From the NCBI GenBank assembly GCA_030278955.1, contig JAOANR010000006.1, forward strand, positions 55,084,915 to 55,148,914: 64,000 nucleotides of DNA, written 5' to 3'. Within the stretch, counting starts at the first letter, position 1. The number at the start of each line of letters is the position of its first letter. This document shows, one piece after another, positions 5,723-58,719 of this stretch. Position numbers and translations under genes: made by a program. Source of the DNA: Hygrophila difformis. Taxonomy: Eukaryota; Streptophyta; Magnoliopsida; Lamiales; Acanthaceae. Below the pieces are notes generated by a model. It made no database searches. It was not told where the DNA came from and worked only from the letters and a program-made list of their open reading frames with translations.

Positions 5723-7107
5723 TTTTTTTTTAATGAATAGCCTTAGAAGGCTTGTGAAACAAAAGAAAAATAAAGAAACAAAAAAGCAATGAACAAAGTA
5801 GCTAAGCACATATAAAACTATCTACGAAAAAATAAAACTCCAGAGGCATCATTTGCGATGTTCTCAACACAGTCATCCGACGGGAACGCCCAAGTCGTAT
5901 AGAAATCCTCTTTTAGCTCCATCTTCTTGGCCAACCTATCCGCAACCAGATTCCCTTCTCTAAAAACATGTTTAAGGGACCCTCCCAATTCGTGAATCTT
6001 CTCCCGAATAGCGCAAATAATAGGCAAAAACGATGACTCTGAACCATGATGCCATTAACTAAAGGTACAGCTTCCAATGAATCCCAATAAATATGCACAC
6101 CTTCCCCGCCATGCTGCGCCGCAAATATCAACCCCTCCTTCAATGCCAATAACTCCACTTCTAACACCAATGAAACCTCCAACAGCCGTCCGAAGCATAG
6201 CTGCAAACCCCGACTTACCCTCACCCTGCATCACACACCCATCCGTGTGAAGCACCACACCTTCATCATCCTCATCTCGCCATCGGACATAGCGCACAGG
6301 CCGAAGCCGACTACTATGAGGAACCGCTCTCTCCAACGCAGCAGCAAGCCATCTCCACTCCTTGATCAATTTCTCTCATCTAGTAATCGACCCTGTAAAC
6401 ACTCTCTTATTCCTCTCACACCAAACCACCCATAATGCCACTATAAAGGCCACTCCATAACACACCGTCGCCCACTGAAGCCACCCAGAAGCCTTGCCTG
6501 AAAGGACCTCATGAACATTCAACACCCCTTGTAACCATTTTAGTCCATAAGCTCTGAGCGCAGTGACATGAAAACAATGCGTGTCTCCAATCTTCATACT
6601 CCTCCCCACAAATCAAGTAAAGTGGCGTAGTGGCCAATCCTCTCTCAAACCGCAATCTATTTACAGGCAAGGCCTCATGACATCCCATCCAAAGTAAAAT
6701 GCTAATTTTTTCCGAAATCCAAGTTTTCCAAATCTAGCGCCAATCCACCTGCTAACTGTCCAAAATTTTTAGCCAACAATAACCCAATGCCATCGTATAT
6801 CTCCCATGCACGTCTCCACGCCAATGCAAAATATCCGCCACACCCTCCACCAAAGAAGGGACCGAGGAATGCTGAATATCGTCCTTAATACTAGCAGGCA
6901 GACAAGAGTATAGCTTGTCTAGATGCCAAGAATTACCTTCCACAACGTCGCACACCCTCACTTGAATGTCTTGATAATGGACAAATGGTACTTGATGACA
7001 TAGTCGTTCCCCCTTCCACCAAGCCGAGTGCCAAAAGGAACTATTTCCGTCCCCCAACCTAACACTATACCCCTTCTCAACCATCGCACCGACCTTACCA
7101 TGAGCCT
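5723..7107 (-). pseudogene. LINE (L1-type) 3' portion: ORF2 zinc finger and RNase H
   Basis: This is the C-terminal third of a LINE ORF2 on the minus strand, the downstream half of the LINE that resumes at 27621. Frame pieces: 6752-7135 (GYSVRLGDGNSSFWHSAWW, the region after RT), 6376-6609 (zf-RVT-like region with WVVWCERNKRVF), 6055-6369 and 5913-6224 (RNase H: VVLHTDGCVMQGEGKSGFAA, then ALKEGLIFAAQHG and HIYWDSLEAV), and 5818-6027 (HVFREGNLVADRLAKK, the RNase H C-terminal His/Asp helix). The frames shift several times, so it is inactive. A 10-11 bp poly-T at 5721-5731 is the poly-A tail. The split falls exactly at the AGCCT duplication of the Athila element. Confidence 0.85.
7103..7107. repeat. 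Target-site duplication AGCCT, left
   Basis: AGCCT precedes the first LTR base (TGAAAC at 7108) and recurs at 27616-27620 right after the far LTR end (ATTATCA at 27609-27615). A 5-bp duplication is what retroviral-type integrases make. LINE coding sequence continues on both outer sides, which confirms the junction. Confidence 0.95.
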
Positions 7108-9229
7108 TGAAACTTTTGACGAGTTTGATGAACACGAGTAATTTTCTGAAATATCAGGTTTGGATTTATTAGATGAAAAGAGTTATGATGTAGGGAAGGG
7201 GTTTAAGGATATGTTATGATTCCCGCTTTTTATTACTCATGTGGGGTCTTTTAATTTCAAATGGCGTTGTGGTCCTTCCCACCCTGAAACTTTTGACAAA
7301 TATCACGGTGCAACCAGGATTGACCTTCAATCTGTCACCCTGAAAGTCCCTGGTATCTGCACCATGATGCTTCTCTTAATTTCATGTCAAGAAGATACCT
7401 GCCATGAAACTTTTGAACATCTTCCCACTGTATGAGTATTTTCCCAAAATGTTATGTTTTTACTTACTCGTGTCAAGAAACTGTGCTCCCGAAAGCGCAC
7501 GGAGTCAAAAATTGCAGTAATTTATAGTAAGTACCGGATCGTTCACTGGAGGATATGCGATGGAAGCAGGGCCCACGTCGTTTACTAAGATTTTCCACTC
7601 GGTTACTCGATTCAAGTTTTGCAAGGGTTTCTAACAACTACTTGACATAATTTAACTCCAGATCATGAAAGCAGTAAAAATTATTCTACTAAGCATGGTA
7701 ACTAATATCTAGGAAAGCAAATAAATTTATACTAAGAAAGCGGTTAAAATTACGCTACACTATCTAGAAAGCAGATTTAAATATGACAGAAGGGACAGGG
7801 ATGAAGTAATAAAGATTGGACAAGATTCAGATGGAACACAATTAGACTTCCATTTTGTTACACAAATCTTAGCTTGGGATAATCCTCCAGTTAGCTAACT
7901 CTCATGCTTTCTGCACCATGTTCCCTTTAACAGACAGGTACTTATGGTGAGAATTTACATGCTCTTAAGACAACAATATCTAAGATACCACAAACTTATA
8001 ACTCCCTTCACAGTCCTTGTGAAATTACATTATTCATCTGTGGTGGATAAGCAACACCTAACATATCATTAGTTGACATGCCAAGTACTCCTATCATTCC
8101 CCCATGTCACACCCAAAGTTTCAAATCAAGCCCCAAACCATTCCATAACTCTCAAACCTTTTAACAGATGGACAGCCCCTAATTCTTCCAAGTGACCTCT
8201 ATGAAAGCATTTAAAGGAAAGCAGTAAAGAAAGCTGTAAAGAAAGCATTTAAATCTATCACTCGGAAGCATTAAAAATGTCTCTTTCCGTTAGTATAAAA
8301 GAGCCCCTGGTCTTGGTGACCAGATGCAGATCAAGAACCCCCGAGATATCAATAAGCCACAGAGCTTACAACATCTGGGTAGTTATGAGATACAAACTAA
8401 ATGAAACAGATCCATAAATGAACCTATTCCGGATGTACTCACTCAAGACTCAATTTTAGACTTTGGCAGAAGAAGATAGTAGTCGAAGGAATACTCGACC
8501 TTACCTTAGAAATTCACCAAGGCCTATATGTTGTTCCTCTAGTATTATTTATCACATCTCATCTACACCCAAGTGGATATTGACTTAATGCGATATCTAA
8601 TATCAGATTTCCAACACACAGCAATTTTGAGAAGCAAATGAATATTTGAAAATTATTCCCTAGACAGGTACTAAACTCTCAATTAAAACACAGATCCTTT
8701 CAGTCTAGGTGAGACCTAATCGCTGACTCTGCTTCTAAGCTCTCAAAATCAACCCCCAGTGGAAGATGAATTAGTCATAACTGTTGAATTTATCCCTTAC
8801 TCAGATCCGGATTTTATAAAGGAATTTTTATTGGAAATTTATTATGCAGCATCAGATTTAAATCAAGACTTCTGTGTCCAAGGGGAAGGGTCCCCAAAAT
8901 AATGTTATGACTAGAACATCTATATAATAATATCATGCATACAAGTATATGAAAGAGAAAATAAAATACCCCAAAATATATGGTGGGGTTAGACAGAATG
9001 CGATACACAAAGGTGAATTAGCCTGAGATGAGAAGAAATTGGCTAAATAGGGTGCTAGAGATAGTTGGGGTTTTCCGGACTGCAAACACCTGCTGTCCGG
9101 TTCCCAATTATCCCAGATGACTAATTTTAGACAGAAAGAATTCCAAACGACGGTGACCGCCGTCATTTAGTTTTCTTTTGTCTGTGAGTGGAAGAAAAAA
9201 AACCCACATATTTCTTGATGTAACATTTC

Positions 9230-9257
9230 TCAAATGATGTTGGTCGACATCATTTGA
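9230..9257. repeat. Perfect inverted repeat in LTR
   Basis: Arms TCAAATGATGT (9230-9240) and ACATCATTTGA (9247-9257) flank a 6-base loop. The other LTR keeps it at about 24971-24998. It lies in the transcribed part of the LTR and could form an RNA stem-loop. Function is unknown. Confidence 0.7.
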
Positions 9258-9718
9258 TAGTATTGCAACTTGAATTCAGGTTGAGAAATTAAGATAAAGA
9301 AAATTAAAACTGTATTTGATTAGGAATTGGCTGAGTGACTAATCGAAACTCTTAGTGAAGAGAACGCTCGCCGAAGCTTCCACCAACCACTAACCAGATC
9401 ATGCAAAATAACAGATAATGATTGACACACAGAAGACGGGTTAATCGATATCCCTGTGAAGGGACCTTTCACCAACATTAATCTGTTGTGTTTCTCATTA
9501 TCCGTTCATACACACAATGAAAGAGAAAAAACATAAAGGTAAGAAAATATTTTTGGTATTGTGTGGGTGTTAAGTACACAATAAGTGGACACTAATGGTT
9601 TGAAATGTGTAATGGATAGAAATCAGATGAATTGGGCCCAGGCCCAATATATCCATGCAACTTACACAAATCATGGAAGAAAAATATTTTTGGAGTTTTC
9701 AAAATAAAAGGATAGTTC

Positions 9719-10180
9719 AATTCGAATTATTGGGGTAATTCGAAATGAGAATGCATGAAGGATGAAGTATTACTTTACCCAATTGATCATTGCCAGAATT
9801 TGGAACATCATCTAATTCGAATTATTGACCAATTCGAATTAATTCGAATTGGACAACTCGAATTGGCGAAGTCCTTTTCTTGCTCAAATTGACTAAGGCA
9901 TTTACCTCAAGAGGAAGGTGAATTCGAATTGTTCAGCAATTCGAATTAATTCGAATTGCACAATTCGAATTGGTTAGAAATGAAGGAATAAACCAAGGCA
10001 TGAATGGGTGGTATGCAATACAATTTGGTTTTTCATGCCAATTCGAATTGTGTGAACCAATTCGAATTAATTCGAATTAGAGAATTCGAATTGGTTGGAA
10101 ACCTCATGAAGAAATTTTTGGTTGTGCAATTCGAATTTCTTAGGCAATTCGAGATAATTCGAATTGCCTCAATTCGAATT
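9719..10180. repeat. R/U5 array of AATTCGAATT palindromes (3' LTR)
   Basis: At least four modules of single, double and single palindromes are spaced by 7-9 and 4-5 bases, about 850-1330 bp downstream of the TATA box on the transcribed side of the LTR. In RNA these would fold as short hairpins. Confidence 0.9.
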
Positions 10181-11048
10181 ACACATTTTCGAACAATAAC
10201 AATTTTTGTTCTCACAAGTATGGGTTAGGTGTACACTGTGCGGTTAATGATGGGTTAGATTTACCAAATCCCTCATCTCACATCAATGTCACTTCACAGC
10301 CACCCTAGTGAGGTTTTCAACAGATAAACAAACACATGTCCAGTGGGTATTGGCAAGATTTAAACCCTATTTCTACAAACAAAGGATTCAAAGGTCCAAG
10401 AACCTAAAACATCTAGTTATCTAAGAACTACATGAATAAACTAAGAACACTCAAGTTATCTAAGGCAGCATAAAATAAAATCAAGGCAGGAAAAATAAGG
10501 CATAAAGATAAATTCTAACAAACCCTAAAAACATCTAAAACCTAAGAACACTTATTTGAAGCTCTAAGGCACAAAATCAAACCAAAAACCCACCAAACAT
10601 GCATTTATTAAGTTTGAATGTCAATTAGGACATAATAAATGTAATCTAGTTGAAACAAACAAACACTCTAAGCATTTATTTCTAAAGAAAGCATTAAAGA
10701 GTGCCAAAACACATGAATAACACCATTTCTGGAAATTTTTCTTGTATTGACACTTTGAAAGCAAAATAAAGAACCCAAAACCATCATTAGCTTGAAGGTA
10801 GGGTTTATTCTAACTAGAAAGCATGTAAAAATTCTGGAAATGGCTACTCTAAGGGTTACACAAACTGCTTCTACACTAAACTAAGATCAAAGCATGTAAA
10901 AACTATACTACTTGCAAGAAAAATAAACTAAACTAAACTAAACTACCTACCTAACCCTTAAGGGGTGTGGAACCTCCTGCTGTTCTTTTTGTCCCCAGCT
11001 GCTTTTTGGTAAAATTCTTGATCTCTCTGCTCTGTTGTGGAAGGTCTG

Positions 11049-11057
11049 CTTTTATAG
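11049..11057 (-). promoter_or_regulatory. LTR TATA box (3' LTR)
   Basis: The minus strand reads CTATAAAAG, 821 bases from the LTR start and 75 bases past the palindrome array. Transcription would start near 11020. The homologous LTR at 62733 has a TATA-like CTTTAAAAGG after the same GGGCCTAGGGTTTC context. Confidence 0.65.
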
Positions 11058-11130
11058 ACAAATTTCGAAACCCTAGGCCCACCAATGTTGTGCTCATGCT
11101 CCACAGCTTTTGATGAATTTTTGAGTGAAG

Positions 11131-11544
11131 TTCGAATTATCTCATCCAATTCGAATTAATTCGAATTGTGAGATCTCTTCCTTGAGCTGGAAATGTGGCC
11201 TTCATTTGTCAATTCGAATTGTTGTGAAGAATTCGAATTGGTCTTTTCTCGAATTGGATTAGGGTTTCTTGGCTTCTTCGCATCTGTTGGCAATTCGAAT
11301 TGTTTGTGCCAATTCGAATTAATTCGAATTGGACAATTCGAATTGCACCTTCTTCTTGCCTTTGGGTTTCTTCTCTTCATTCCCTAATTCGAGTTATTCA
11401 AGCCAATTCGAATTAACTCGAATTGGCCATAGTAATTCGAATTAGCTCTTCTGCATCCCTTCCCAACACTTAACCACTTCTTGTTCTCTTCAGCAATTCG
11501 AATTGCGTGCAATTCGAATTAATTCGAATTGCACAATTCGAATT
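11131..11544. repeat. U3 array of AATTCGAATT palindromes (3' LTR)
   Basis: Modules have the pattern single site, 6-9 bases, double site AATTCGAATTAATTCGAATT, about 4 bases, single site. The array lies about 75-490 bp upstream of the LTR TATA box, where enhancers sit. Some units are mutated (AACTCGAATT, AATTCGAGTT). Confidence 0.9.
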
Positions 11545-11878
11545 GTGCTTCAACACTTGACCAAATTTCAGTTGTGGGATTTTTTATCTTTTTCCCATCT
11601 TTTTTGATTTTTTATGGGCTCTTGTATTCTTTTGCCCATTTTTCTTCCTTTTTCTTTTCTTTTTCCTTTTTTCATGTTTTTGGATTTTTCTAACACAAAT
11701 ACAATTAAAAATTGCATTTTTTTGTGTCTTTTTATTACCGGCTCAATGTTTTTACAAACTAGCATTAATCTGTCAAATTCAACTGCTTTCTTATTAAAAT
11801 AAGATGGAAACACGATCAAAATGTCCGTCTCAGACACGGAAATGGATTGGAAATAATGGACAATTTTGGTCATTATCA

Positions 11879-11892
11879 ACATCCTCACATTT
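11879..11892 (-). other. Polypurine tract of the 3' LTR
   Basis: The minus strand reads AAATGTGAGGATGT directly before the 3' LTR start TGATAATG. The same sequence precedes the LTR start at 62733 in the second Athila-like copy, which supports it as the plus-strand primer. It is purine-rich but interrupted by T residues. Confidence 0.75.
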
Positions 11893-13558
11893 AATACTGA
11901 TCGTCCCCGAGCAGTCAGAGTCAGTGCTCCTAAGAGCTTGGACTCTGCATATTCAATCCATTTGCGTGGCCTCAAAAATTTCATTCTTCTTATATTGGGA
12001 TAACGCAATCAAAATTACAAGTATTAAATTCTCTTGGTTGCAGTGTTTAATGGAATGATACTTCTCACTTGAGTGAACATACAAACCAATCATTATTGTT
12101 AATTCTTCTTGAATAAATGTTTAGAAGATTCCATCGGCTTAATCCTTGAATTCAAGCATGACATAATCATTGATTAATAGGAACAGAGCCTCATATATAG
12201 TAGAATTGGAAAGTTCACTCACTCTCAATGTTGACTTTTATCATCAACGCTCAAAATCAAATTCAATTAAATTCTCCCATAAGCTTGCAATTGGACCAAC
12301 TCGCCACCTACTCATTTCCTCAAATCGAGATCCCGAGGTCTTATTCAAGGTTATAACGGGGCATGCGGTTGTAACATTTCGTAGGAAAGGAAAATATTGG
12401 GCTAAAAAGTGACACGACACCATCCCTTCATAACTTGACATGTTGTAGAAATTATGATCATCATTATTTCTTTCTTTCTTTTGTTTTTCTTTCCTTTTCT
12501 ATTGCATGACATTAGACTTTATCTAATTTGCTTTGTCATTTGCAATTTATTCTTGTTGAATGGATCTCAACGATTTTTTTTTTTTTTTTGAATCGGTTTA
12601 TAGCATACCGATTGATATTTTTAATGATCATAAATTATAATGCCTTGATGGGATGGTTCATGCACACTTGGGTTTGATTTTCTTGGTCTTTTTGTAAGGG
12701 TAGGAATAATATAGTGGCTTCAAAGAAAAATTAGGCTTAAAGGCTCAACTTGGTTAATCCTAAAGGGAAAATATTTTTGGGTTTGGAATTCAAACGAAAG
12801 CCAAAATTTTGGTTTTTCTAAGTGCCTCGATCATTTGCTCGATTTCGGGAATATGGCATGGTCTTGAATCGGTCCCAATTGCAAGTTCTAGTGTCCTTTA
12901 ATCGAATTGATTTTCACACAACAAGGAATATAATGAGTAAAAGTGACTCATGGCTCAGATCTCACAAGGTATGGTTTGATCATGTCATACATTCATTCTC
13001 AAATTTAACCTTTGAAAAATTCTTGCAATTATTCAATCAAATTCTCAACATGAAAGTTCGTTTTTCTTTCAAGTGATCATATCATTGGATTTTTATAGCT
13101 CAAAACCTCAAGAATTCATGTCATGCATATTTTTAATTGTTTTATCTCAATGTAATAGTCTGAAAATTTCATCATCAGCCTAAATTCAACATGTGAATTT
13201 AGGTGACAGATTTATGTTTGTTTTATGCCGGTTTGTTTAATTGAAAGCGGTAAAAGGACACTGCGAACATGCAAGCATGTCACAGCTTGTTTTTGGCATG
13301 ACAGTCACTTATTCATCTTGGACTGCCACACATCTTTTTCAAATAATAGAGAACTCAAGACGAAATTCTCTTGTGGAAAGCAGTAATGTAGTTCGTTATA
13401 TAATACACGACCTTAACCGCATCCAGACATCACAGGAGATGCTGTACACTTGAATGAGTTAGCATTAAAGAACAGTCAAAAGATTACCAAAATACGGTTC
13501 CAGTCAGTCCAGTCAAAAGTGAATCTTTACAGATTCAGTCCATCAGCATCCTTCCCTT
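11893..13558 (-). other. Non-coding region between F-box exon and PPT
   Basis: No gene is seen. The part nearest the PPT (11893 to about 12450) aligns by eye with 62200-62718 of the second Athila-like copy, including GTTACAACCGCATGCCCCG and GACCTCGGGATCTCGATTT. It is therefore a conserved Athila 3' untranslated segment, not captured host DNA. A 16-base T run lies near 12574-12589. The boundary of captured DNA on this side probably lies between about 12600 and 13550. Confidence 0.55.
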
Positions 13559-14342
13559 CTACCCCTGGAAAAAGATCCTGGTCCAGTGGACAAAGTTCGT
13601 TAGGCTACAGGGTACGCAGTAGTCTCCCATGTCTTCCTCATCTTCCTCCATTACCCTTGTGTAGTAGACTCTTGGTCCTTGATTCCCAAACAGGTCAGGG
13701 GTCTCCAGGCTTTCAGCCAGCCACGCGAAGACATTGGTCCTTACATATGTCATGACGAACCTGTTTGTTATGATCCTGTTTATCATTGACACCCCCTGCT
13801 GGACCTGTTCATTATCCAGCTTGCTGAGCAGCATGTATCCCCTGACAAAGATCGATGCCTTATGGTTGTCCTCAATCCCTTCTTTTAGCAGCTCACAAGC
13901 CAGACTTTCGTTTCCTGCTCCGAATGCTTGTAGAGCTGGGATGAGTTGGAGGTTGTAGTTGCCAGCTTCTTCGCACTTGACCAGGAGTGCCTCCTTCTGC
14001 AGTTCAACCCTTTGTTCCCACATTTTGACGATGGTAGTCTCCAGTTCACATCTCTTGTAGACAATGGGAAGGTCAGCTGCATTCCTGAGTTTGGTGCACA
14101 CCTCTCTGACTCTCCACACTTTCTTAATGGAGTCCTCTCCGATGCGGGAAAGGATTTCTCCTAGGAGCTCTACTGGCAGATCCAGTAGTTGGGTCCCTTC
14201 CTCGTGATCTTCATTTTGAATTGGGGGAATGATGCCTCTGGAAAGACATGGAGAAATGATTAGGTCTGAAACCCTCAGCCTTACACCTTCAGCCACCTCA
14301 AAGTATAGTTCGCTCGTTACCACCTGCCTTACTTGAGGTACA
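13559..14342 (-). CDS. Captured F-box / Sel1-like protein, main exon
   Basis: This is an open frame of about 260 codons in the same orientation as gag-pol, between pol and the 3' LTR. An F-box lies at 14045-14185 (LLDLPVELLGEILSRIG, then VREVCTKLRNAADLP). Downstream is a helical block (ALQAFGAGNESLACELLKEG, SIFVRGYMLLSKLDNEQVQQ) like the Sel1/TPR-like tail of At1g67340/At2g35280-type plant F-box proteins. F-box proteins recruit substrates to SCF ubiquitin ligases; the substrate here is unknown. The frame has no ATG near its start: a stop lies about 15 bases before 14356. I infer a 3' splice site CCTTCATAG|T at 14343, joined in phase to the exon at 15627-15664. There are no stops or frameshifts. 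It occupies the position of the Athila env-like ORF. Confidence 0.75.
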
Positions 14343-15626
14343 CTATGAAGGTTCAAGGGGTCAGATTATCAAATCTATTCTTATTGCAGCAGAAATAAGG
14401 AAAGCAAGAGAGATATAAGGATCTTGGATACTTAAAATTTTTCTTGGACTATAAATAGTCTAAGATGTTTTTGGGTGGTCGAAGGACCAAAAAGAGAATA
14501 TTTCGTAGTTTGTTGAGCCTACGAAAGGATTTTGATTTTTATCATTTGAAAAGTGATTGAAATCATGTGAGATAGGGGAGATAAGAGATTAATGATGTAC
14601 GACAAATGCAAGAGATGAATTATGTAATCATCAGTATGCATAAATGGACCAACAAAATGAAAAATAAAAACAAACATGCATGCACAAAAGGAAATTTTTG
14701 GATTTTTATGAGAAAGTGTTGATTTGTTTATTTAGTAAAATTGGGGGTGTAAGTGGTCTCCCATTTGGGTTTTGTTTTGGAGAGTGGGTTTTTAAGGAAT
14801 CGAACAAAACATTCCTCATGAATATTCCCCACTTGTCCCAAAGTGACAAAGATCAAACACTTTAAAGCAAAGAACAACCTACTATTTGTCTTTTTATAAA
14901 TAAATGCCATCCCAAAGTGTTGGAAAAATTTTGGCATGGTTTCGTCTGTACCATGTGTCCCGGATGTGCAAACATCAACTTCTAGAGTTGAGTTTGCAAA
15001 GTGTGGGCAACTTGTGCCCGACAGAAACATTTATTACAAAAATACTCATATAATATAATACATATAACCATACAAACAAACAAACACAAATGGTCCGTAC
15101 ATACTAATGTCATGCATAAATCTTTCCAAAAATCATGCTTCAAGACATGGATTCTTAGACATCCACAACATGCATTGTCCGTCATCATCATCAAGCATAT
15201 GATGATCAAAATAACAGTGACTAAAAGAAGATGTCACAGTGTTCATCCTACTCACAGGTTACCAAAATCAATATAGACAATACAAAAATAAGCAGGGCAG
15301 TAAAACAACACTACAAAAATAACAAAAGAAACGGATTTTCGAAGGTTTTGCAACCCTCATTTTCAAAATGAGAAGCCCTCTCACCACAGAAAACTCGAAC
15401 CTACCAAAAATAGCAGTTATGACCACAAGTCCTAAAACCCTAGGTTCTGCCTACTCAGTTCTCACCCATTTCCGAACATGCCTAGCATACTCCGACCATA
15501 TTCCGACTCTTCCCAACATGAAAAACGAAACACATTCCCTCCCCAACCCCGATTTCACAAGGAATACGAAGGGACATAACTGAAAACTGTGAAAACCGAG
15601 TGCGAAAATGAAAAAGAAACACTTAC
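14343..15626 (-). other. Intron-like spacer inside the Athila 3' region
   Basis: Between the candidate first exon and the F-box exon lies T-rich (minus strand) sequence with no conserved domain and only short unsupported ORFs. It is bounded by GTAAGT at the 5' end and CATAG at the 3' end. It would be the intron of the captured gene if that gene is spliced as proposed. Confidence 0.35.
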
Positions 15627-15664
15627 CCCCTGCTCCCACTCGGATTTGATGACGAAGATGCCAT
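15627..15664 (-). CDS. Candidate first exon of the captured gene
   Basis: The ATG at 15664 opens MASSSSNPSGSR and is followed by a consensus 5' splice site, GGGG|GTAAGT (15626-15621). The preceding 130 bases are C/T-rich on the minus strand, like a plant 5' leader. The exon leaves two bases of a codon. The acceptor at 14343 supplies the third and enters the F-box frame, giving about 273 residues across a 1.28-kb intron. This is a prediction; the exon could instead belong to a former env-like ORF. Confidence 0.4.
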
Positions 15665-15823: not shown

Positions 15824-16232
15824 TTCGAATTATTTCATCAATTCGAATTAATTCGAATTGATAGTTTCTGTGAGAGATGCGAGTTATTCAGGCCAATTCG
15901 AATTAATTCGAATTGGCTTGAAAGACAAAGAAACAAAGCAAGTTCGAATTCTGAGATCAATTCGAATTAATTCGAATTAACTCACAATTCGAACTTGAGG
16001 TTGTGAGCAAAATCTGCACAAGGTGCCTAAGTGAGCTAATTCGAATTATTGTGGCCAATTCGAATTAATTCGAATTGCTTGAATAACTCGAATTGCTCAC
16101 TTGCTGAGGAAAATGCCTTTTGTATGCCAATTCGAATTAGTCAGGCAATTCGAATTAACTAATCTGAGAGTGAAAATTTCCGAGGCAAAATGTCTTATGT
16201 GGTTTGTTCCAAGCAATTCGAATTAATTCAAA
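15824..16232. repeat. Internal AATTCGAATT array upstream of the captured gene
   Basis: The same double palindrome is repeated about five times. Its edge closest to the captured exon, TTCGAATTATTTCATC, matches the edge of the U3 array (TTCGAATTATCTCATCC at 11131). Another block sharing GAGTTATTCA-GCCAATTCG is found in both arrays, so they are related by descent and not by chance. Confidence 0.85.
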
Positions 16233-16576
16233 TTTTTCTTGAAATGAAAAATAAACCACATTCAAGACCTAGAAAGATTTTTAGGTTTTCAAAAATTTAT
16301 GTTCATCGAGATGAACTCAAAAGCAAACATATCTACAGAGAATTAGATTCTAAAACATATTGCTTGCATAAATTAGGTTGGGTTAACAATTTTATTTTAC
16401 GAATTTATTCTGGATTTTAGATTTCTCTAAATTCCAAAATTAATTTTCATTAAATATAATATTAACCCAACCGGGAACCTGGTTTTTTTTTTTTTTGAAG
16501 CTTTATCTTTCTTTTTGTTGTTCCTCGAATTCCTGCAAAACAATTATAAGAAAGCATTAGGTTTTCTCCAAATATC

Positions 16577-16612
16577 AACATCCTCACATTTAGAGTCTTA
16601 GTACTCTAAATG
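16577..16612 (-). other. Second PPT-like site with adjacent hairpin, downstream of pol
   Basis: On the minus strand AAATGTGAGGATGT followed by TGATA repeats the exact PPT/LTR-start junction found at 11878-11892, 95-130 bases after the pol stop. It overlaps a perfect inverted repeat CATTTAGAGT / ACTCTAAATG (16587-16596 and 16603-16612, 6-base loop). It may be a central PPT or a fossil of an earlier LTR junction. Confidence 0.6.
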
Positions 16613-16705: not shown

Positions 16706-19700
16706 TTATTGAGCATAAGCCGGTTCTGTTGTCATTTGAGCTTCTTTTTCGGGGTCGAACTGCCCAAGATACTCCTTCAATCTGTGTCCATTCACTACCA
16801 GCTCTCCTTTGTCAGTTCGGATCCTGACAGCTCCATTTTCAAACACGTGCACCACTTCGTATGGCCCTTCCCATCTGGATTTTAAGCTTTCCGGGGAACA
16901 GCTTCAACCTAGAATTGAATAACAAGACATTCTGGCCAACATAGAAGTGTTTAGACTTAATACGACGATCGTGTAACTTCTGGGTCCGCTCTTTATAAAT
17001 CCTCGAGCTTTCATAAGCTTGCGCACGTATTTCCTCAATTTCATTGAGGTCCAACTTGCGCTTACTCTGAGCAACTCGTGAGTCAAAATTGAGCGTTCGT
17101 ACGGCCCAGTAAGCCTTATGCTCTAGTTCTACGGGCAAATGACAGGCCTTTCCGAAGATGAGTCTGTATGGAGACATCCCAATGGGAGTCTTGAATGCAG
17201 TGCGGTATGCCCATAAAGCATCATTGAGCTTACGTGACCAATCTTTGCGAGTTGTCCCCACAGTGGCCTCGAGTATGTGTTTGATTTCGCGGTTTGAGAT
17301 CTCGACTTGACCACTGGTTTGCGGATGGTAAGGCGTGCCGATCTTGTGGAGAATCCCATTTTTGCTCATAAGATTTGCAAATGCTTTATTAACAAAATGG
17401 GTTCCTCCATCTGATATGATCACCCTGGGTACACCAAATCTATTGAAAATGTTATTTTTCAAAAATTTGACGACCTGGTTGCCATCATTGGTTGGCAATG
17501 CAACGGCCTCAACCCATTTGGAAACGTAATCAACAGCTACCAAGATGTAATGGTTCCCATCAGATGTCGGGAATGGTCCCATGAAGTCAATACCCCATAC
17601 ATCGAAAATCTCGAGAGTGAGAATTCCTTGTTGAGGCATCTCATCCCTCTTGGAGATATTCCCTAGTCTTTGGCATCTGTCGCAGGCTTTAACAAACGCT
17701 TTGCAATTTTCGTAAATGGTAGGCCAATAAAAACCGCACTCGAGCACCTTATGGGCTGTTCGAGTGGGGCCATGGTGACCTCCATATTCCGACTCATGGC
17801 ATTTCTTAGCGATTTGATAAGCCTCGTGCTCAGTTTCACATCGTCTAATAATCGAATCTGCGCAATGCTTGAAGAGATAAGGATCTTCCCAGAAGTAGTT
17901 AACTACATCTCGGTTGAACCTTGCTTTGTGGCCCCTGCTTTGAAATGGTGGAATTATTCCGCATGCTAAAAAGTTAGCAATATCGGAAAACCACGGACAA
18001 GCTTGATCATGAAGATGCAAGGAAAACAGTTGCTCGTCCGGAAAATTCTCATTTACGGCTAGCTCATTTTTATCGTTTTCTAGTCGAGACAAATGGTCAG
18101 CAGCACCATTGTCTCTGCCTTTTCTATCTTTTATTATAATGTTGAATTCTTGCAACAAAAGTACCCACCTGATTAATCGAGGTTTGGCGTCTTGTTTGCT
18201 GAACAAGTATCTCAGTGCAGAGTGATCTGTGTACACTGTGGTTTTCGTACCAATAAGATATTGTCTGAATTTATCAAACGCAAAAACCACGGCATACATC
18301 TCCTTCTCCGTGGTGGTGTAGTTAATTTGGGCCTCATTCAGGGCATGACTTGCGTAATGAATTACACAATGCTTCCCTTCCTTATGTTGCCCAACAACTG
18401 CACCCACGGCGAGATCACTTGCATCACACATTACCTCGAAAGGCATTGACCAATCGGGTGGTTGCACTATTGGGGCAGAAATCAACATCTCTTTGAGCGT
18501 GTCAAAGGCTTGAACACACGCTTCATTTATTACGAAAGGATTTTCTTAACAAAGCAAGTTAGTGAGCGGCTTGGCAATTTTAGAAAAGTCTTTAATGAAT
18601 CTCCGGTAGAAACCGGCATGCCCTAAGAAGCTCCTAACTGCTTTTATTGAATTAGGCAATGGTAGGTTTGAGATGACTGAGACCTTAGCTCTGTCGACTT
18701 CGATACCTGCGCGCGAGATGCGGTGACCTAACACTATTCCTTCGGTGACCATGAAATGGCACTTCTCCCAGTTCAAAACTAGGTTGGTGTCCTCACATCT
18801 TTTCAAGATTTGTGCAAGATTAGTCAAACATTCATCAAAAGTATCTCCATACACAGAGAAGTCATCCATGAAAACTTCAATGCATTTTTCGATAAATTCT
18901 GAGAAAATTGACATCATGCATCTTTGAAATGTGGCATGCGCATTACAAAGTCCAAAAGGCATGCGCCTGTACGCAAAAGTTCCATATGGGCACGTGAATG
19001 TGGTCTTGTCGTGATCCTCGCTAGCTATTACAATCTGATTATAGCCAGAGTACCCATCCAAAAAGCAATAGAATTCCCTCCCAGCCAACCGCTCTAGCAT
19101 CTGATCAATGAATGGCAAGGGGAAATGGTCCTTCCTGGTAGCGATATTGAGCTTCCGGTAGTCGATGCAAACTCTCCAACCGGTCACTGGACGCGTCGCC
19201 ACTTCTTCTCCTTGCTCATTAGTCGTTACACAGATCCCCCCACGTTTCGGTACGACCTGCACTGGGCTAACCCATTTGCTATCAGAGATAGGATAGATGA
19301 TACCAGCATCTAAGAGCTTGATAACTTCTTTCCTTACCACTTCCTGCATATGGGGGTTCAGACGCCTTTGTGGTTGCCTTGAGGGCTTGTACTCCTCTTC
19401 CATTAAAATTCTGTGCATGCAAACAGAGGGACTTATTCCTTTTATATCAGAAATGGTCCATCCGATTGCATGTACATATTTCTTTAGAATGTCTACCAGA
19501 GCTTTTTCTTGTTCTTGTGTCAGCTTGGCAGACACAATTACCGGTAATCTTTTATGTTCAACGAGAAAGACGTACTTAAGATGATCCGGAAGTATTTTAA
19601 GTTCAAGTTCTGGTGGGCATTCAACGGAAGGCAGTAATTTGCGAGAAATGGATGGGAGAGAGAGATCAGATTTACCTTCAGGATCCTGTGTCAGTACAGG

Positions 19701-22700
19701 ATCCACTTCCTCCTCAGCGGTGCTTTCCTCTTCCTCCGGGATGAACTCAACCCCATCGAATTCTTCAAGGTCTCCAGAAATAGGGTCCTCGAAGTGGACA
19801 GCGTTGCAGCTCCTTGGTTGCTCCGCACCTTCAGGCTTCAGTACCTGTTTTGAAACTTTGTTTGGCTCATCAGTCGCAGAGTTTATGCTCTCATCCTCAC
19901 TCCTACTTTCTATTACATCAAATATGGAACAAAATCCCTCATTCGGAAATTTCTGCAGCTGTTCCATGTCAAAGGTGATTTCTTTGTCATCGACCCTCAA
20001 TGTGACTCTTCCAGATTTGGCATCAATCAGTGCACCGCCAGTGGCCAGAAACGGGCGTCCCAGGATAAGTGGCATTTCAGAGTCCTCTTCGATGTCGAGG
20101 ATGATGAAGTCAACCGGGAAAAGAACTTGACCGATTTTGACTACCACATCCTTGAGGATTCCTACAGGCTTTGTGATTGATCTGTCTGCAAGCTGCAGCT
20201 TCATCTTGACTGGTTCAATCTCCCCGAGCCTTAGGCGAATTGCCATGGCTAAGGGCATCACATTGATGCTGGATCCTAGATCACATAACCCCATGCTCAC
20301 TTTGGCCTTCCCAATCTGTACTGGTAGCGTGCAACATCCAGGGTCTTCTTTCTTTTCGGGCAGTTTCTTCTGAACTATGGCACTGCATGTCCTGTTGAGA
20401 ACAATCACATCCTCCTGCTCTACCTGCATTTTTCCTGAAATCAATTCTTTCAAGAACTTAGCATAGGTGGGCATTTCTGAAATCATTTCAACGAGAGGAA
20501 TGGTTATCTCTACAGACCTTAACCGTTCTAGAAATTTCTTGAATTTAAGGTCATGTTCCTTATTTTTAAGACGTGCTGGGTATGGCACCCTTGGCATGTA
20601 CTTATTATTGTTTGTTTTTGGTGGTAAAGAGAAGGAAGTTGTACCTTCAACCCTACCCTTTTCAGCTCCCTTTGCAGCTTCATCCTGCGGAATAGCTATT
20701 TCTGATTTGTCCTCGACCAGTCCAATACCGTCTCCTCCTTCAATCCTTTCATTTTCTTTTTCACCCTCCACTGGATCCTTTTCCTCCTCGGCCGTCTCTT
20801 TTCCATGTCCAACAATTCCTTTTAGAGTCTTGCCTCCCCGCAATGTGATTGCTTTACACTGCGGGTTAGCTTCAGTACTGCTTGGAAGTGTTCCTTTCCC
20901 CCTGTTCTGCAGTTCCTTGGCCAATTGGGTGACTTGCGTCTCCACATTCTTGATTGATGACTGCAGTTGTTGGTTTATATCCTTCTGGTTGGCTATAAAC
21001 TCGGTCATCAGATTCTCCAGACGAGATGGTGGCCTTTGGTTATATTGTTGATTTTGATCAGGTTGGGATTGGAAATTCTGGAAATTCTGGCCTTGGTTCT
21101 GATTAGGCCTCTGTTGGATCTGAGGTTGGACATTCTGATTCTGATTTTGAAAGTTCTGCGCTCTTTGCTGGACGAATCCTTGATTCTGAGGTCTGAAGTT
21201 TTGCTGTGGGTTTTGATTTGCGAACTGGTTGGGCTGGTTTGGCTGCAACAAATGCGCATTAAGTGCATTGTTGTTGGAATAGGAGAGATTAGGATGGCGA
21301 TTTTGGTAGTTCCCGGCATAATTACAACTTTCGGTAGCTATCTGTTGGCATGTATCAGTTGGATGAGGTCCCTGACACAGCCCACAGACAATTCCCGATT
21401 GCTGTGTTTGAGCTTGGTTTGATGAGGTTCCTGCCTGGGAAGCGTCTATTCCTTTCCCTTTATCCTGGCTCAGCTGTATCGAAGCTACCTGTTCTTGCAA
21501 TTTTTCAAAATCTGTTTTCCCTTCACTTACAGCAAAGACTTTTCTAGGGGAAGCCTCCTTCCCATCATCTGTGTTTAGGATGGATCTGTTGACAGACATT
21601 GTCTCAATCTTCTCCCAAGCTTGGTCCATAGGCAGGTGGAGTAAATGTCGTCCGCCAGCAGCGTCTAACATTGTTCTCCATGGGTGGGTGAGTCCTCCGT
21701 AGAATTTCCTCAATTGCTCCCATGGTGCGTACCCGTGTTGGGGGCATCGCCTGATGAGGCCCAAGAATCTTTCTTTCGCATCATATAATGACTCGTCTGG
21801 CTTCATTTTAAAATCTCCAATTTTAGCTCGTCCTTCCTCAATCTTTGATTCCGGAAAATACTTCAGCAAAAAGCTCCTCACCAAGTCTGCCCAAGTGCTC
21901 CTCTGATTGATAGGCAATGACTTATACCAGTCCCTGGCACCACTATATAAAGAAAATGGAAACAACATTAGCCTAATAGCATCAGGAGAGACTCCCTGAT
22001 TTTTGATCGTGTCGCAGAGCTCCAGGAAGGTCTGGAGATGATCATGAGGGTCCTCATGATTTGCACCGCAGAACTGATTGTTTTGCACCAAATTAATGAG
22101 TGCCGGTTTGAGCTCGAAATTGCGTGCAGGAAAGTGTGCTCTCCCAGGTCCATCCAGATAGGGCTCTACTATTGGTTGCATGAAGTTTGCCGCTGCTTGC
22201 TGCTGTTGTTGATTTCCTTGTTCAGCTTGGTTCTGGTACTGTTGGTGGTAGTTGGGAAATTGCTGGAAGTTATGTGGATCTTGTGGGTTGTTCCGAAACT
22301 GATCTGGATTGAAAGCTTGGTTTTGGTATTGTTGGTTTGGTATGTTTTGGTTTTGCTGAAATTGGTTTAAGGGTGGTGGTGGTTGTTGGTGGAATTGCTG
22401 GTATTGTTGCTGATTGGGATTTGGTAGATTCTCCTCTTCGTTGGCACGATTAGGATGTTCTACCATTCCTCCGTCAGCTCCATTACCAGGGTTATTTGGT
22501 GGTTGGTCTATGGGTAAGATCGGGGGAATGTTCTGGTTATCTGCCATGTCTGATAGATCGCTGCTCGATGTTTCAGGTGAAGTGCGGGTCCGACGCTCCT
22601 GCTCTTTCCGTCTTCTGGCTTCTGCCCTCAGTTGGCGAGCGGTCCTTTCTATTTCTAGATCGAACGGTAGCTCCGGCAATGTGCTCCTCCTCCGTTGCAT
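16706..22700 (-). pseudogene. Athila gag-pol polyprotein, one stop and one frameshift
   Basis: The ATG at 22700 opens 1,384 codons in one frame. Domains: gag core about residues 200-350, zinc knuckle C439-C442-H446-C451, a Q/N-rich linker 480-560, aspartic protease with DLGSS at 807-811, and reverse transcriptase about 1100-1330 with FLDGYSGYNQ and the catalytic FMDD at 1277-1280. A single in-frame TAA (18546-18548) interrupts the RT/RNase H connection. The same frame continues through RNase H ([13 protein letters not shown]), an HHCC finger and the integrase catalytic residues ([26 protein letters not shown]). Near 16878-16884 an A-run shifts the frame. Read in the next frame, the C-terminus continues to a TAA at 16706-16708. 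Otherwise the frame is nearly clean, in keeping with recent insertion. The element would depend on another copy for movement. Confidence 0.93.
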
Positions 22701-22829: not shown

Positions 22830-22847
22830 TCCCCGGCAACGGCGCCA
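22830..22847 (-). other. Primer-binding site, tRNA-Asp type
   Basis: Immediately after the 5' LTR the minus strand reads TGGCGCCGTTGCCGGGGA, which matches the complement of a plant tRNA-Asp 3' end including CCA. This primer site is known from the Athila lineage. There is no spacer between the LTR end and the PBS. The leader to the gag ATG (22701-22829) is about 130 bp and contains no upstream ORF I would call. Confidence 0.9.
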
Positions 22848-25458
22848 TGAAACTTTTGACGAGTTTGATGAACACGAGTAATTTTCTGAAATATCAGGTT
22901 TGGATTTATTAGATGAAAAGAGTTATGATGTAGGGAAGGGGTTTAAGGATATGTTATGATTCCCGCTTTTTATTACTCATGTGGGGTCTTTTAATTTCAA
23001 ATGGCGCTGTGGTCCTTCCCACCCTGAAACTTTTGACAAATATCACGGTGCAACCAGGATTGACCTTCAGTCTGTCACCCTGAAAGTCCCTGGTATCTGC
23101 ACCATGATGCTTCTCTTAATTTCATGTCAAGAAGATACCTGCCATGAAACTTTTGAACATCTTCCCACTGTATGAGTATTTTCCCAAAATGTTATGTTTT
23201 TACTTACTCGTGTCAAGAAACTGTGCTCCCGAAAGCGCACGGAGTCAAAAATTGCAGTAATTTATAGTAAGTACCGGATCGTTCACTGGAGGATGTGCGA
23301 TGGAAGCAGGGCCCACGTCGTTTACTAAGATTTTCCACTCGGTTACTCGATTAAAGTTTTGCAAGGGTTTCTAACAACTACTTGACATAATTTAACTCCA
23401 GATCATGAAAGCAGTAAAAATTATTCTACTAAGCATGGTAACTAATATCTAGGAAAGCAAGTAAATTTATACTAAGAAAGCGGTTAAAATTACGCTACAC
23501 TATCTAGAAAGCAGATTTAAATATGACAGAAGGGACAGGGAGGAAGTAATAAAGATTGGACAAGATTCAGATGGAGCACAATTAGACTTCCATTTTGTTA
23601 CACAAATCTTAGCTTGGGATAATCCTCCAGTTAGCTAACTCTCATGCTTTCTGCACCATGTTCCCTTTAACAGACAGGTACTTATGGTGAGAATTTACAT
23701 GCTCTTAAGACAACAATATCTAAGATACCACAAACTTATAACTCCCTTCACAGGCCTTGTGAAATTACATTATTCATCTGTGGTGGATAAGCAACACCTA
23801 ACATATCATTAGTTGACATGCCAAGTACTCCTATCATTCCCCCATGTCACACCCAAAGTTTCAAATCAAGCCCCAAACCATTCCATAACTCTCAAACCTT
23901 TTAACAGATGGACAGCCCCTAATTCTTCCAAGTGACCTCTATGAAAGCATTTAAAGGAAAGCAGTAAAGAAAGATGTAAAGAAAGCATTTAAATCTATCA
24001 CTCGGAAGCATTAAAAACGTCTCTTTCCGTTAGTATAAAAGAGCCCCTGGTCTTGGTGACCAGATGCAGATCAAGAACCCCCGAGATATCAATAAGCCAC
24101 AGAGCTTACAACATCTGGGTAGCTATGAGATACAAACTAAATGAAACAGATCCATAAATGAACCTATTCCGGATGTACTCACTCAAGACTCAATTTTAGA
24201 CTTTGGCAGAAGAAGATAGTAGTCGAAGGAATACTCGACCTTACCTTAGAAATTCACCAAGGCCTATATGTTGTTCCCCTAGTATTATTTATCACATCTC
24301 ATCTACACCCAAGTGGATATTGACTTAATGCGATATCTAATATCAGATTTCCAACACACAGCAATTTTGAGAAGCAAATGAATATTTGAAAATCATTCCC
24401 TAGACAGGTACTAAACTCTCAATTAAAACACAGATCCTTTCAGTCTAGGTGAGACCTAATCGCTGACTCTGCTTCTAAGCTCTCAAAATCAACCCCCAGT
24501 GGAAGATGAATTAGTCATAACTATTGAATTTATCCCTTACTCAGATCCGGATTTTATAAAGGAATTTTTATTGGAAATTTATTATGCAGCATCAGATTTA
24601 AATCAAGACTTCTGTGTCCAAGGGGAAGGGTCCCCAAAATAATGTTATGACTAGAACATCAACATAATAATATCATGCATACAAGTATATGAAAGAGAAA
24701 ATAAAATACCCCAAAATATATGGTAGGGTTAGACAGAATGCGATACACAAAGGTGAATTAGCCTGAGATGAGAAGAAATTGGCTAAATAGGGTGCCAGAG
24801 ATAGTTGGGGTTTTCCGGACTGCAAACACCTGCTGTCCGGTTCCCAATTATCCCAGATGACTGATTTTAGACAGAAAGAATTCCAAAAGACGGTGACCGC
24901 CGTCATTTAGTTTTCTTTTGTCTGTGAGTGGAAGAAAAAAAAACCCACATATTTCTTGCTGTAACATTTCTCAAATGATGTTGGTCGACATCATTTGATA
25001 GTATTGCAACTTGAATTCAGGTTGAGAAATTAAGATAAAGAAAATTAAAACTGTATTTGATTAGGAATTGGCTGAGTGACTAATCGAAACTCTTAGTGAA
25101 AGAACGCTCGCCGAAGCTTCCACCAACCACTAACCAGATCATGCAAAATAACAGATAATGATTGACACACAGAAGACGGGTTAATCGATATCCCTGTGAA
25201 GGGACCTTTCACCAACATTAATCTGTTGTGTTTCTCATTATCCGTTCATACACACAATGAAAGAGAAAAAACATAAAGGTAAGAAAATATTTTTGGTATT
25301 GTGTGGGTGTTAAGCACACAATAAGTGGACACTAATGGTCTGAAATGTGTAATGGATAGAAATCAGATGAATTGGCCCCAGGCCCAATACATCCATGCAA
25401 CTTACACAAATCATGGAAGAAAAATATTTTTGGAGTTTTCAAAATAAAAGGATAGTTC

Positions 25459-25919
25459 AATTCGAATTATTGGGGTAATTCGAAATGAGAATGCATGAAG
25501 GATGAAGTATTACTTTACCTAATTGATCATTGCCAGAATTTGGAACATCATCTAATTCGAATTATTGACCAATTCGAATTAATTCGAATTGGACAACTCG
25601 AATTGGCGAAGTCCTTTTCTTGCTCAAATTGACTAAGGCATTTACCTCAAGAGGAAGGTGAATTCGAATTGTTCAGCAATTCGAATTAATTCGAATTGCA
25701 CAATTCGAATTGGTTAGAAATGAAGGAATAAACCAAGGCATGAATGGGTGGTATGCAATACAATGTGGTTTTTCATGCCAATTCGAATTGTGTGAACCAA
25801 TTCGAATTAATTCGAATTAGAGAATTCGAATTGGTTGGAAACCTCATGAAGAAATTTTGGTTGTGCAATTCGAATTTCTTAGGCAATTCGAGATAATTCG
25901 AATTGCCTCAATTCGAATT
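25459..25919. repeat. R/U5 array of AATTCGAATT palindromes (5' LTR)
   Basis: This is the copy of the 9719-10180 array in the 5' LTR; spacing and module order are unchanged. Confidence 0.9.
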
Positions 25920-26787
25920 ACACATTTTCGAACAATAACAATTTTTGTTCTCACAAGTATGGGTTAGGTGTACACTGTGCGGTTAATGATGGGTTAGATT
26001 TACCAAATCCCTCATCTCACATCAATGTCACTTCACAGCCACCCTAGTGAGGTTTTCAACAGATAAACAAACACATGTCCAGTGGGTATTGGCAAGATTT
26101 AAACCCTATTTCTACAAACAAAGGATTCAAAGGTCCAAGAACCTAAAACATCTAGTTATCTAAGAACTACATGAATAAACTAAGAACACTCAAGTTATCT
26201 AAGGCAGCATAAAATAAAATCAAGGCAGGAAAAATAAGGCATAAAGATAAACTCTAACAAACCCTAAAAACATCTAAAACCTAAGAACACTTATTTGAAG
26301 CTCTAAGGCACAAAATCAAACCAAAAACCCACCAAACATGCATTTATTAAGTTTGAATGTCAACTAGGACATAATAAATGTAACCTAGTTGAAACAAACA
26401 AGCACTCTAAGCATTTATTTCTAAAGAAAGCATTAAAGAGTGCCAAAACACATGAATAACACCATTTCTGGAAATTTTTCTTGTATTGACACTTTGAAAG
26501 CAAAATAAAGAACCCAAAACCATCATTAGCTTGAAGGTAGGGTTTATTCTAACTAGAAAGCATGTAAAAATTCTGGAAATGGCTACTCTAAGGGTTACAC
26601 AAACTGCTTCTACACTAAACTAAGATCAAAGCATGTAAAAACTACACTACTTGCAAGAAAAATAAACTAAACTAAACTAAACTACCTACCTAACCCTTAA
26701 GGGGTGTGGAACCTCCTGCTGTTCTTTTTGTCCCCAGCTGCTTTTTGGTAAAATTCTTGATCTCTCTGCTCTGTTGTGGAAGGTCTG

Positions 26788-26796
26788 CTTTTATAG
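26788..26796 (-). promoter_or_regulatory. LTR TATA box (5' LTR), gag-pol promoter
   Basis: CTATAAAAG on the minus strand in the 5' LTR, in the same context as at 11049-11057. It is the likely promoter for the full-length minus-strand RNA that starts gag at 22700. Confidence 0.65.
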
Positions 26797-26869
26797 ACAA
26801 ATTTCGAAACCCTAGGCCCACCAATGTTGTGCTCATGCTCCACAGTTTTTGATGAATTTTTGAGTGAAG

Positions 26870-27283
26870 TTCGAATTATCTCATCCAATTCGAATTAATT
26901 CAAATTGTGAGATCTCTTCCTTGAGCTGGAAATGTGGCCTTCATTTGTCAATTCGAATTGTTGTGAAGAATTCGAATTGGTCTTTTCTCGAATTGGATGA
27001 GGGTTTCTTGGCTTCTTCGCATCTGTTGGCAATTCGAATTGTTTGTGCCAATTCGAATTAATTCGAATTGGACAATTCGAATTGCATCTTCTTCTTGCCT
27101 TTGGGTTTCTTCTCTTCATTCCCTAATTCGAATTATTCAAGCCAATTCGAATTAACTCGAATTGGCCATAGTAATTCGAATTAGCTCTTCTGCATCCCTT
27201 CCGAACACTTAACCACTTCTTGTTCTCTTCAGCAATTCGAATTGCGTGCAATTCGAATTAATTCGAATTGCACAATTCGAATT
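26870..27283. repeat. U3 array of AATTCGAATT palindromes (5' LTR)
   Basis: This is the copy of the 11131-11544 array in the promoter LTR, with one unit mutated to AATTCAAATT near 26887. Confidence 0.9.
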
Positions 27284-27615
27284 GTGCTTCAACTCTTGAC
27301 CAAATTTCAGTTGTGGGATTTTTATCTTTTTCCCATCTTTTTTGATTTTTTATGGGCTCTTTTATTCTTTTGCCCATATTTCTTCCTTTTTCTTTTCTTT
27401 TTCCTTTTTTCATGTTTTTGGATTTTTCTATCACAAATACAATTAAAAATTGCATTTTTTGTGTCTTTTTATTACCGGCTCAATGTTTTTACAAACTAGC
27501 ATTAATCTGTCAAATTCAACTGCTTTCTTATTAAAATAAGATGGAAACACGATCAAAATGTCCGTCTCAGACACGGAAATGGATTGGAAATAATGGACAA
27601 TTTTTGCCATTATCA

Positions 27616-27620
27616 AGCCT
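27616..27620. repeat. Target-site duplication AGCCT, right
   Basis: This is the second copy of the 5-bp duplication at 7103-7107, between the end of the 5' LTR and the LINE reverse-transcriptase coding sequence. Confidence 0.95.
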
Positions 27621-46569: not shown

Positions 46570-46624
46570 AATTGGCATGCCCAGTGGGACACGAGTGGAT
46601 ACCATATCCGCTTAGATCTAGTTT

Positions 46625-58715: not shown

Positions 58716-58719
58716 TATA

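Follow-up and report, generated by a model that had tools for sequence, protein, structure and literature searches.

The 64,000-nt stretch of Hygrophila difformis DNA analyzed here (contig JAOANR010000006.1, positions 55,084,915 to 55,148,914; hereafter the window) contains a full-length long terminal repeat (LTR) retrotransposon at 7108-27615 on the minus strand, flanked on both sides by the 5-bp target duplication AGCCT. Based on its domain order, the type of its primer binding site and its Transposase_32-bearing relatives, it appears to be an Athila-type element. Downstream of pol it carries, in this order, an internal copy of the polypurine tract, a 13-codon exon, an intron and an open frame (13559-14365) with F-box and TPR_27 domains. 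We consider it quite probable, judging from the sequence comparisons described below, that this is a spliced post-pol gene with a swapped-in F-box terminal exon, that its product is a probable receptor of the Skp1-Cullin-F-box (SCF) type, and that it has been selected and exchanged among elements.

The minus-strand frame is open from 14365 to 13559 and has 265 codons when counted from a TTG at 14356; no ATG lies ahead of the F-box within it. A chance open frame was rejected, as none of 2000 base-shuffled versions of the stretch, read on both strands, reached this length (the longest frame had 206 codons). An uninterrupted frame, sense to the element and placed between pol and the 3' LTR, had been reported in a first-pass annotation of this DNA, and it is indeed present. 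The same annotation described an F-box followed by a Sel1-like tail; the F-box match in Pfam scored 20.1 bits, just under the cut-off of 20.5, and it does precede the tail, which is TPR_27 in Pfam naming. We take the protein to resemble At2g35280-like F-box/TPR_27 proteins. It showed no Pfam match to Transposase_32, though it occupies the same slot. AlphaFold prediction from the single sequence gave no usable fold (mean predicted local distance difference test score of 33), a sequence search of the PDB returned a sole match at an E value of 0.9, and a translated search of the window detected no second F-box besides this frame.

The tiny first exon of the post-pol gene, MASSSSNPSGSRG, and its splice sites (Table 1) were evaluated with plant splice-site matrices, by which the acceptor at 14237 ranked second of 1266 AG sites in the element and the donor at 15626 fourth of 1012 GT sites. 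A branch motif, CTAAT, and a pyrimidine tract accompany this acceptor. An ATG in good context together with a comparable donor in phase with 14237 occurred in 2 of 1000 Markov-simulated upstream regions. Among the copies introduced below, the acceptor CAG was conserved in 21 of 21 sequences and the donor, either GTAAGT or GTGAGT, in all 20 sequences that have exon 1. The 38-nt (13-codon) exon with a GTAAGT donor noticed in the first-pass annotation is thus real, whereas the acceptor chosen there, 14342, is probably wrong: it ranked 343 of 1266, and 14237, which joins exon 1 in phase 2, fits better, with a product of 238 rather than 273 residues. That the frame should start at 14342, with 35 extra N-terminal residues, is unlikely. 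The intervening stretch (14341-14237) is open in 19 of the 21 sequences and slightly diverged, as this possibility would predict, but two copies (L035 and L047) have a common stop in it and both Pfam matches lie wholly downstream of it. Its shared variants (2 nonsynonymous to 3 synonymous) are too few for showing constraint, and its ratio of nonsynonymous to synonymous polymorphism (pN/pS) is 0.24, for which bootstrapping gave 0.06-0.80. It is therefore the shorter form that we use in what follows; the F-box gene is carried by the element, and splicing that starts from the 13-codon exon is its probable mode of expression.

Table 1. Positions in the window of the retrotransposon and its predicted post-pol gene
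Feature	Position	Strand	Remarks
5' LTR	22848..27615	-	AGCCT duplication at 27616-27620
Primer binding site TGGCGCCGTTGCCGGGG	22831..22847	-	directly after 5' LTR
gag to reverse transcriptase frame	18546..22700	-	Pfam; terminated by in-frame stop near 18546
RNase H and integrase frame	16839..18488	-	Pfam; integrase tail changes frame near 16880
Internal polypurine tract copy and LTR start	16574..16588	-	motif identical in kind to 11875-11889
Strongest acceptor-like site (TTTTGCAG)	16533..16534	-	exon side from 16532, upstream of exon 1
Exon 1 (predicted)	15627..15664	-	ATG start, encodes MASSSSNPSGSR and two bases; 38 nt, phase 2
Intron (predicted)	14238..15626	-	GTAAGT donor at 15626; CTAAT branch motif; CCAG acceptor, last base 14238
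Exon 2 (predicted), F-box and TPR_27, including stop	13559..14237	-	238-residue product with exon 1
F-box match PF00646	14054..14188	-	20.1 bits, cut-off 20.5
TPR_27 match PF23310	13724..14023	-	31.9 bits, cut-off 27; profile 7-107 of 110
F-box cassette (differs from L051)	13391..14363	-	about 970 bp, own acceptor; sister comparison
3' LTR	7108..11878	-	target duplication AGCCT at 7103-7107

The genome of this plant (915 Mb, 246 contigs) was searched with the F-box frame, and 144 of 6067 first-look candidates were scored. All 144 were at least 89% identical over the frame and 120 of them had no stop. In addition, a 34-base pattern at the acceptor was found at 318 genome sites with up to 3 mismatches, with no hits for the reversed-pattern control. 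The pattern of the internal polypurine tract was far more frequent (3001 sites with up to 3 mismatches; control 0). The set studied further consisted of the window and 20 fetched copies from the upper part of the similarity ranking (93-98% identical), 19 of which match the window element from the end of pol through the F-box. One copy (L036) matches only from 14611 onward and is the only one without the internal polypurine tract; another (L042), which breaks off some 500 nt before the LTR side, is the only one without the 3' tract and LTR start; and the match of L047 begins at 16776. Therefore, the F-box gene is multi-copy and occurs in the same element context. It is not a one-off rearrangement without further copies, an outcome that had been allowed for in the first-pass annotation, and the proposal made there of a fresh capture by a young copy is not supported either, as the gene was already present in the family and has paralogues, 32-36% identical, in another element family (see below).

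To analyze selection, variants among the copies were divided into private (present in one copy, and mostly arisen after insertion) and shared (present in at least 2 copies, and mostly inherited by transposition). In exon 2 (21 sequences) there were 14 nonsynonymous or stop to 57 synonymous shared variants, as opposed to 57 to 47 private ones (Fisher's test, p 4.1e-6), and exon 1 (20 sequences) showed 0 to 13 shared and 4 to 0 private variants (p 4.2e-4), its product being exactly MASSSSNPSGSR in 16 of the 20 sequences despite differences in DNA. In exon 1 pN/pS was 0.03; in exon 2 it amounted to 0.10 (bootstrap 0.07-0.15), so that the neutral ratio considered beforehand as a possible result was not observed among copies. 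The ratio of nonsynonymous to synonymous changes expected under neutrality was 1.4-2.6 by base composition and 0.85-1.73 by methylation context, above the 0.25 observed for the shared variants of exon 2. Integrase, which could be compared in 18 of the 21 sequences, behaved similarly; its shared variants were 3 to 9 and the private ones 53 to 30 (p 0.024). Because exon 1 lies outside the search query, its contrast is not directly explained by the choice of copies according to F-box similarity. These patterns suggest that selection kept the F-box gene working while the elements spread.

Plant retrotransposons are rich sources of small RNAs, and the F-box stretch might act as RNA or DNA (a small-RNA source, a decoy or a packaging spacer) and not as a protein. 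We regard this as very unlikely, since among the sense frames only the F-box frame is low in amino-acid changes; when exon 2 was read in the two shifted sense frames, its shared variants were 62:8 and 59:10. One antisense frame mirrors the true frame (16:53 shared, 61:43 private), which we put down to coinciding codon positions.

A 6-kb stretch was taken from each of five exact internal-tract matches that were absent from the F-box list. Two of them (L053 and L054) contained an F-box 90 and 81% identical to that of the window. The other three (L051, L052 and L055) had a long sense frame with Transposase_32 (80.7, 82.5 and 84.5 bits, respectively; cut-off 45). Their match to the window element ends at 14364, 14307 and 15626 (the end of exon 1), respectively, and homology resumes at 13390 in all three. 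Between these common flanks, the F-box cassette is found in place of the env-like exon of the sisters. Exon 1, the donor and most of the intron are also present in Transposase_32-type sisters and thus belong to the recipient gene and not to the capture, which removes the earlier argument that a retained intron speaks for capture at the DNA level. We take the F-box form to be derived from the Transposase_32 form, because a Transposase_32 frame is known in Athila elements of other plants (PMC11728184). PF20167 was also found in two database proteins (P0013 and P0090) that match the reverse transcriptase (RT) region. An insertion of the cassette as a retrogene was considered as well and rejected: direct repeats of 11-14 nt exist (e.g., at 15118 and 13129), yet no such repeat adjoins a border of the cassette. 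Runs of A occur near the gene (16 A at 12574-12589 and 14 A at 16483-16496).

The start of the Transposase_32 exon was detected at 210 genome sites with up to 2 mismatches (control 0). In 11 of the 12 returned loci, exon 1, GTAAGT and an intron of about 1.4 kb are followed by TCTCCAG ahead of GGATCAATTC (border TCTCCAG/GGATC). In the twelfth (L065, the same locus as L055, C1:83577636), exon 1 runs straight into GGATCAATTC, the join falling precisely where the GT and AG borders would be. Such a join is expected if a spliced message had been reverse transcribed and inserted, and it indicates that the donor equivalent to 15626 of the window is in use, at least with the Transposase_32 exon. Reverse transcription of spliced RNA was previously proposed as a route to env-less elements (PMC1142308). 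The long frame of the intronless env-like copy itself is broken.

In a tree of the exon 1-intron part of 35 loci (22 with the F-box and 13 with Transposase_32), the type of the terminal exon switches at least 8 times; label shuffling gave a mean of 10.8 switches and a minimum of 6. For example, L051, which is of the Transposase_32 type, is located amid the F-box copies L029, L030 and L039. The plain reading of this tree is that repeated recombination swapped terminal exons between co-existing elements. Divergence between the 21 sequences is also uneven along the element, being about 0.10-0.25 at 15850-14500 (the 5' region together with the greater part of the intron) compared with 0.03-0.09 in the pol tail, the F-box and the 3' region, which fits modular recombination. 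A third motif resembling the polypurine tract (AAATGTGAGGATGTTGA) is located at about 2400 in L051, in the intron ahead of the Transposase_32 acceptor. It is near the point at which the F-box and Transposase_32 forms diverge and might be a recombination spot.

A genome search with TPR_27, in which 150 of 5039 candidates were scored (mostly open frames of 260 residues), returned 20 loci. Nineteen of these contain two tandem F-box genes, designated F3 and F4, and 17 also hold the end of a third, F2; the remaining locus (L017) resembles an ordinary host gene. Identity to the window protein is 32% for F2, 33% for F3 and 36% for F4. F4 clears both Pfam cut-offs (TPR_27 53.1 bits, F-box 23.8 bits), while the F-box scores of F3 (19.5 bits) and F2 (16.5 bits) are under the cut-off. 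One locus of this second family was read through (C11:18050000-18064900, comprising L049, L009 and L050); its primer site is of the type found in the window element, gag and protease are present and RT gave no match, and four tandem F-box genes follow, then one further frame and a frame with Transposase_32 (48.8 bits). F1, the first of the four, is broken in frame into two parts, which match F3 at 49-53%. In both F1 and F2 the first exon is a mini exon of 17 nt followed by GTAAGC. Phase 2, the phase of the window gene, results from the top-ranked acceptor in F1, F3 and F4 and from the second-ranked one in F2. Although acceptors are present in F3 and F4, no first exon of their own is obvious, and the two may be spliced from exon 1 of F2. 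The contrast between inherited and private variants recurred in the 19 loci for F3 (p 1.9e-7), F4 (p 1.8e-7) and the further frame (p 1.3e-5), and was absent from the shifted frames of all three. The simplest reading of these similarities is that a common intron-bearing F-box ancestor was duplicated inside elements.

Inherited variants are constrained in both exons of the window gene, and thus also in exon 1, a part that the query did not contain; exon 2 has no gap in any of the 21 sequences, as against an intron gap fraction of 0.06; and the other family holds more paralogues, the two of which tested in this respect (F3 and F4) are both constrained. This makes it quite unlikely that the F-box stretch is a passenger, i.e., a piece of a host gene trapped once, copied passively and useless to the element, even though stops interrupt the matched frame in 24 of the 144 copies scored and gag-pol of the window copy is broken, as could be expected for a passenger. 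Several observations nevertheless weigh against a selected and spliced F-box gene. The splice ranks depend on the plant matrices used, and no intronless F-box copy was present among 21 fetched F-box copies with exon 1. L065 could represent an ancestral intronless state, which we find less likely than a spliced origin, and the region used for the exchange tree may itself be mosaic or recombining. The F-box score of the window is 0.4 bit short of the Pfam cut-off. Seven of the 21 sequences have a stop within exon 2, and gag-pol of the window copy is not intact because of its in-frame stop and the frame change in the integrase tail. The 20 copies were chosen by protein similarity, which lowers amino-acid differences in exon 2 (and not in exon 1). 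Of the 71 shared exon 2 variants, 62 are transitions and may include parallel deamination, and the synonymous divergence of exon 2 (0.19) is well above the divergence of the 3' flank (0.05). Finally, the neutral rates used are assumed values.

Considering the copy context, the exon replacement, the codon constraint, the conserved splice sites and the one splice join in a sister, our best reading is that the protein would be an element-encoded SCF receptor, spliced from the first exon of the element's env gene. The post-pol gene would consist of the tiny first exon (MASSSSNPSGSRG), the 1.4-kb intron and a terminal exon, which is Transposase_32 (env-like) in one set of copies and F-box/TPR_27, with its own acceptor of the same phase, in that of the window. 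Unspliced RNA would be reverse transcribed, so retaining the intron, and spliced RNA, through the predicted use of the F-box acceptor, would yield the F-box protein. This protein would probably join host SKP1 and Cullin as an SCF receptor, with the TPR_27 part picking substrates. Selection would have kept it during element spread, with a presumed benefit to the element, while recombination among co-existing elements would have repeatedly exchanged the two terminal exons. Of the original proposal of a captured F-box gene that is expressed and has an SCF role, the coding gene on an element was thus supported and the SCF role is a fair inference; it is the fresh capture that is not supported.

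The F-box gene may be a tool used by the element in the host. Both host silencing factors (compare polerovirus P0, below) and the element's own proteins are candidate targets. It is possible that the protein serves the element's own cycle, through turnover of Gag/Pol or of the env-like protein, and not counter-defence; we hold this possibility tentatively. The F-box exon replaces the env-like exon one for one and may inherit a regulatory job of this slot, but the read-through locus of the second family holds both F-box genes and a Transposase_32 frame. A broader and equally tentative idea is that Athila-type elements in this genome built a set of SCF receptors, from a single exon to four tandem paralogues, that would remove host silencing or restriction factors; these might be carried as exchangeable env-gene exons and would then correspond, in plant retrotransposons, to the F-box proteins of viruses and to Vif and Vpr of lentiviruses. 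The role of extra genes in plant LTR retrotransposons is a long-standing question. Here, the extra gene has a recognizable biochemical class and evidence of selection at the codon level during spread. A direct test is possible because natural sisters differ in just the terminal exon and sets of one to four paralogues exist. If such proteins degrade silencing factors, retrotransposons would possess a virus-like, ubiquitin-based counter-defence.

With regard to the origin of the F-box exon, a word-limited search of a database of 5.8 billion proteins produced 542 candidates, of which no relative reached E<=0.001. A second such search, with residues 50-265, gave 188 candidates and likewise no match at E<=10. 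The same database gave 7951 matches for the RT region, and the 120 listed are plant proteins by name; thus, the database includes plants. L017, the only host-like TPR_27 gene met, had no significant match to the window protein and a weak one to F3, and no further search for a parent was made in the host genome. Since no relative was found, the capture may be old or the parent may be unsampled.

In the open-access literature searched (subscription papers and supplements excluded), no F-box gene was found described as a regular component of an LTR retrotransposon. TaChr6G576 of Thlaspi arvense, which belongs to the F-box family and has LTRs on both sides, is listed as a non-retrogene (PMC8764390); it is described there as an annotated gene of the host, duplicated both through LTR elements and tandemly, and not as a standing gene of an element family. 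Ten F-box sequences were counted in sunflower repeats and are not tied to an element there (PMC3852528). The env-like/Transposase_32 open reading frame (ORF) of Athila occupies the same slot between pol and the 3' LTR, and the same strand, as the F-box of the window (PMC7264820, PMC11728184). In this genome the two forms have in common exon 1, the donor, most of the intron and the 3' flank, and differ in that the terminal exon of the window is F-box/TPR_27 and not Transposase_32 (PF20167). The nearest precedent in kind is the m6A-demethylase (2-ODD) ORF of orchid Ty3/gypsy elements, a host-type domain fixed, like the F-box, in a large gypsy family (PMC9289625). It is a different protein, and the term F-box is absent from the main text of that study, whose screen covered 121 genomes, 5 kb on either side of RT, and domains present in at least 5 consensuses per species (PMC9289625). 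ORFs of the Retand lineage such as TRP28 are conserved extra genes between pol and the 3' LTR, as here, but they are antisense, whereas the F-box of the window is sense and predicted to be spliced; F-box does not occur as a term in that text (PMC11963269). In rice and sorghum, genes captured by LTR retrotransposons also lie inside the LTRs; these are described as host genes, and F-box is absent from the main text (PMC3726574). Unlike them, the F-box of the window has no host parent found and its inherited variants are constrained. Polerovirus P0 is likewise a plant parasite's own protein, has an F-box-like motif and binds host SKP1 (PMC3588083, PMC6593998). P0 is viral, while the F-box examined here is element-borne; moreover, P0 is not known to contain TPR_27.

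With regard to the host element, Pfam domains follow the order gag, RT, RNase H, integrase, as in gypsy-order elements, and no chromodomain match was obtained in the two pol frames scanned. The RT region is 51-79% identical to 120 plant proteins among the matches listed, none of which carries a lineage label. We take the primer binding site, TGGCGCCGTTGCCGGGG, to be of the tRNA-Asp type. The two LTRs, aligned with one terminal base of the 3' LTR omitted, show 44 differences and 6 single-base gaps (99.08% identity; Kimura two-parameter distance 0.0093), in agreement with the difference of about 0.9% reported initially. The corresponding age is 0.36 million years (My) at 1.3e-8, 0.66 My at 7e-9 or 1.9 My at 2.5e-9 substitutions per site/year, these being assumed neutral rates. 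A TATA-like box is located at LTR position 821 of the 5' LTR. The top-ranked donor-like site, at 24244, lies downstream of it in the same LTR and ties with its copy at 8504 in the 3' LTR, and the acceptor-like site at 16532 is conserved in all 20 sequences (window included) that extend over this place. An LTR-driven spliced message is thus possible.

Arrays of the palindrome AATTCGAATTAATTCGAATT, on both strands, occur at 15824-16234, just upstream of exon 1, as well as at 9812-10217 and 11110-11550 and at the matching places of the other LTR. The Athila-type element seems to have inserted into a LINE-like frame: a LINE-like (long interspersed nuclear element) reverse transcriptase frame on the minus strand lies on both sides of it (5900-7107 and 27621-30119), with an RVT_1 match of 40.9 bits at 28544-29053. 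Farther along the window, a probable Tat/Ogre-type element is present on the plus strand at 46121-61986, with gag, RT and two RNase H domains on that strand and antisense frames of the plant mobile domain (PF10536; the scores, 29.3 and 15.7 bits, are below the cut-off). It is bounded by 90.7% identical repeats (46121-46569 and 61548-61986). A fragment at 62212-63005, also on the plus strand, is about 82% identical to the 3' end of the Athila-type element (11609-12405) and derives from a second element.

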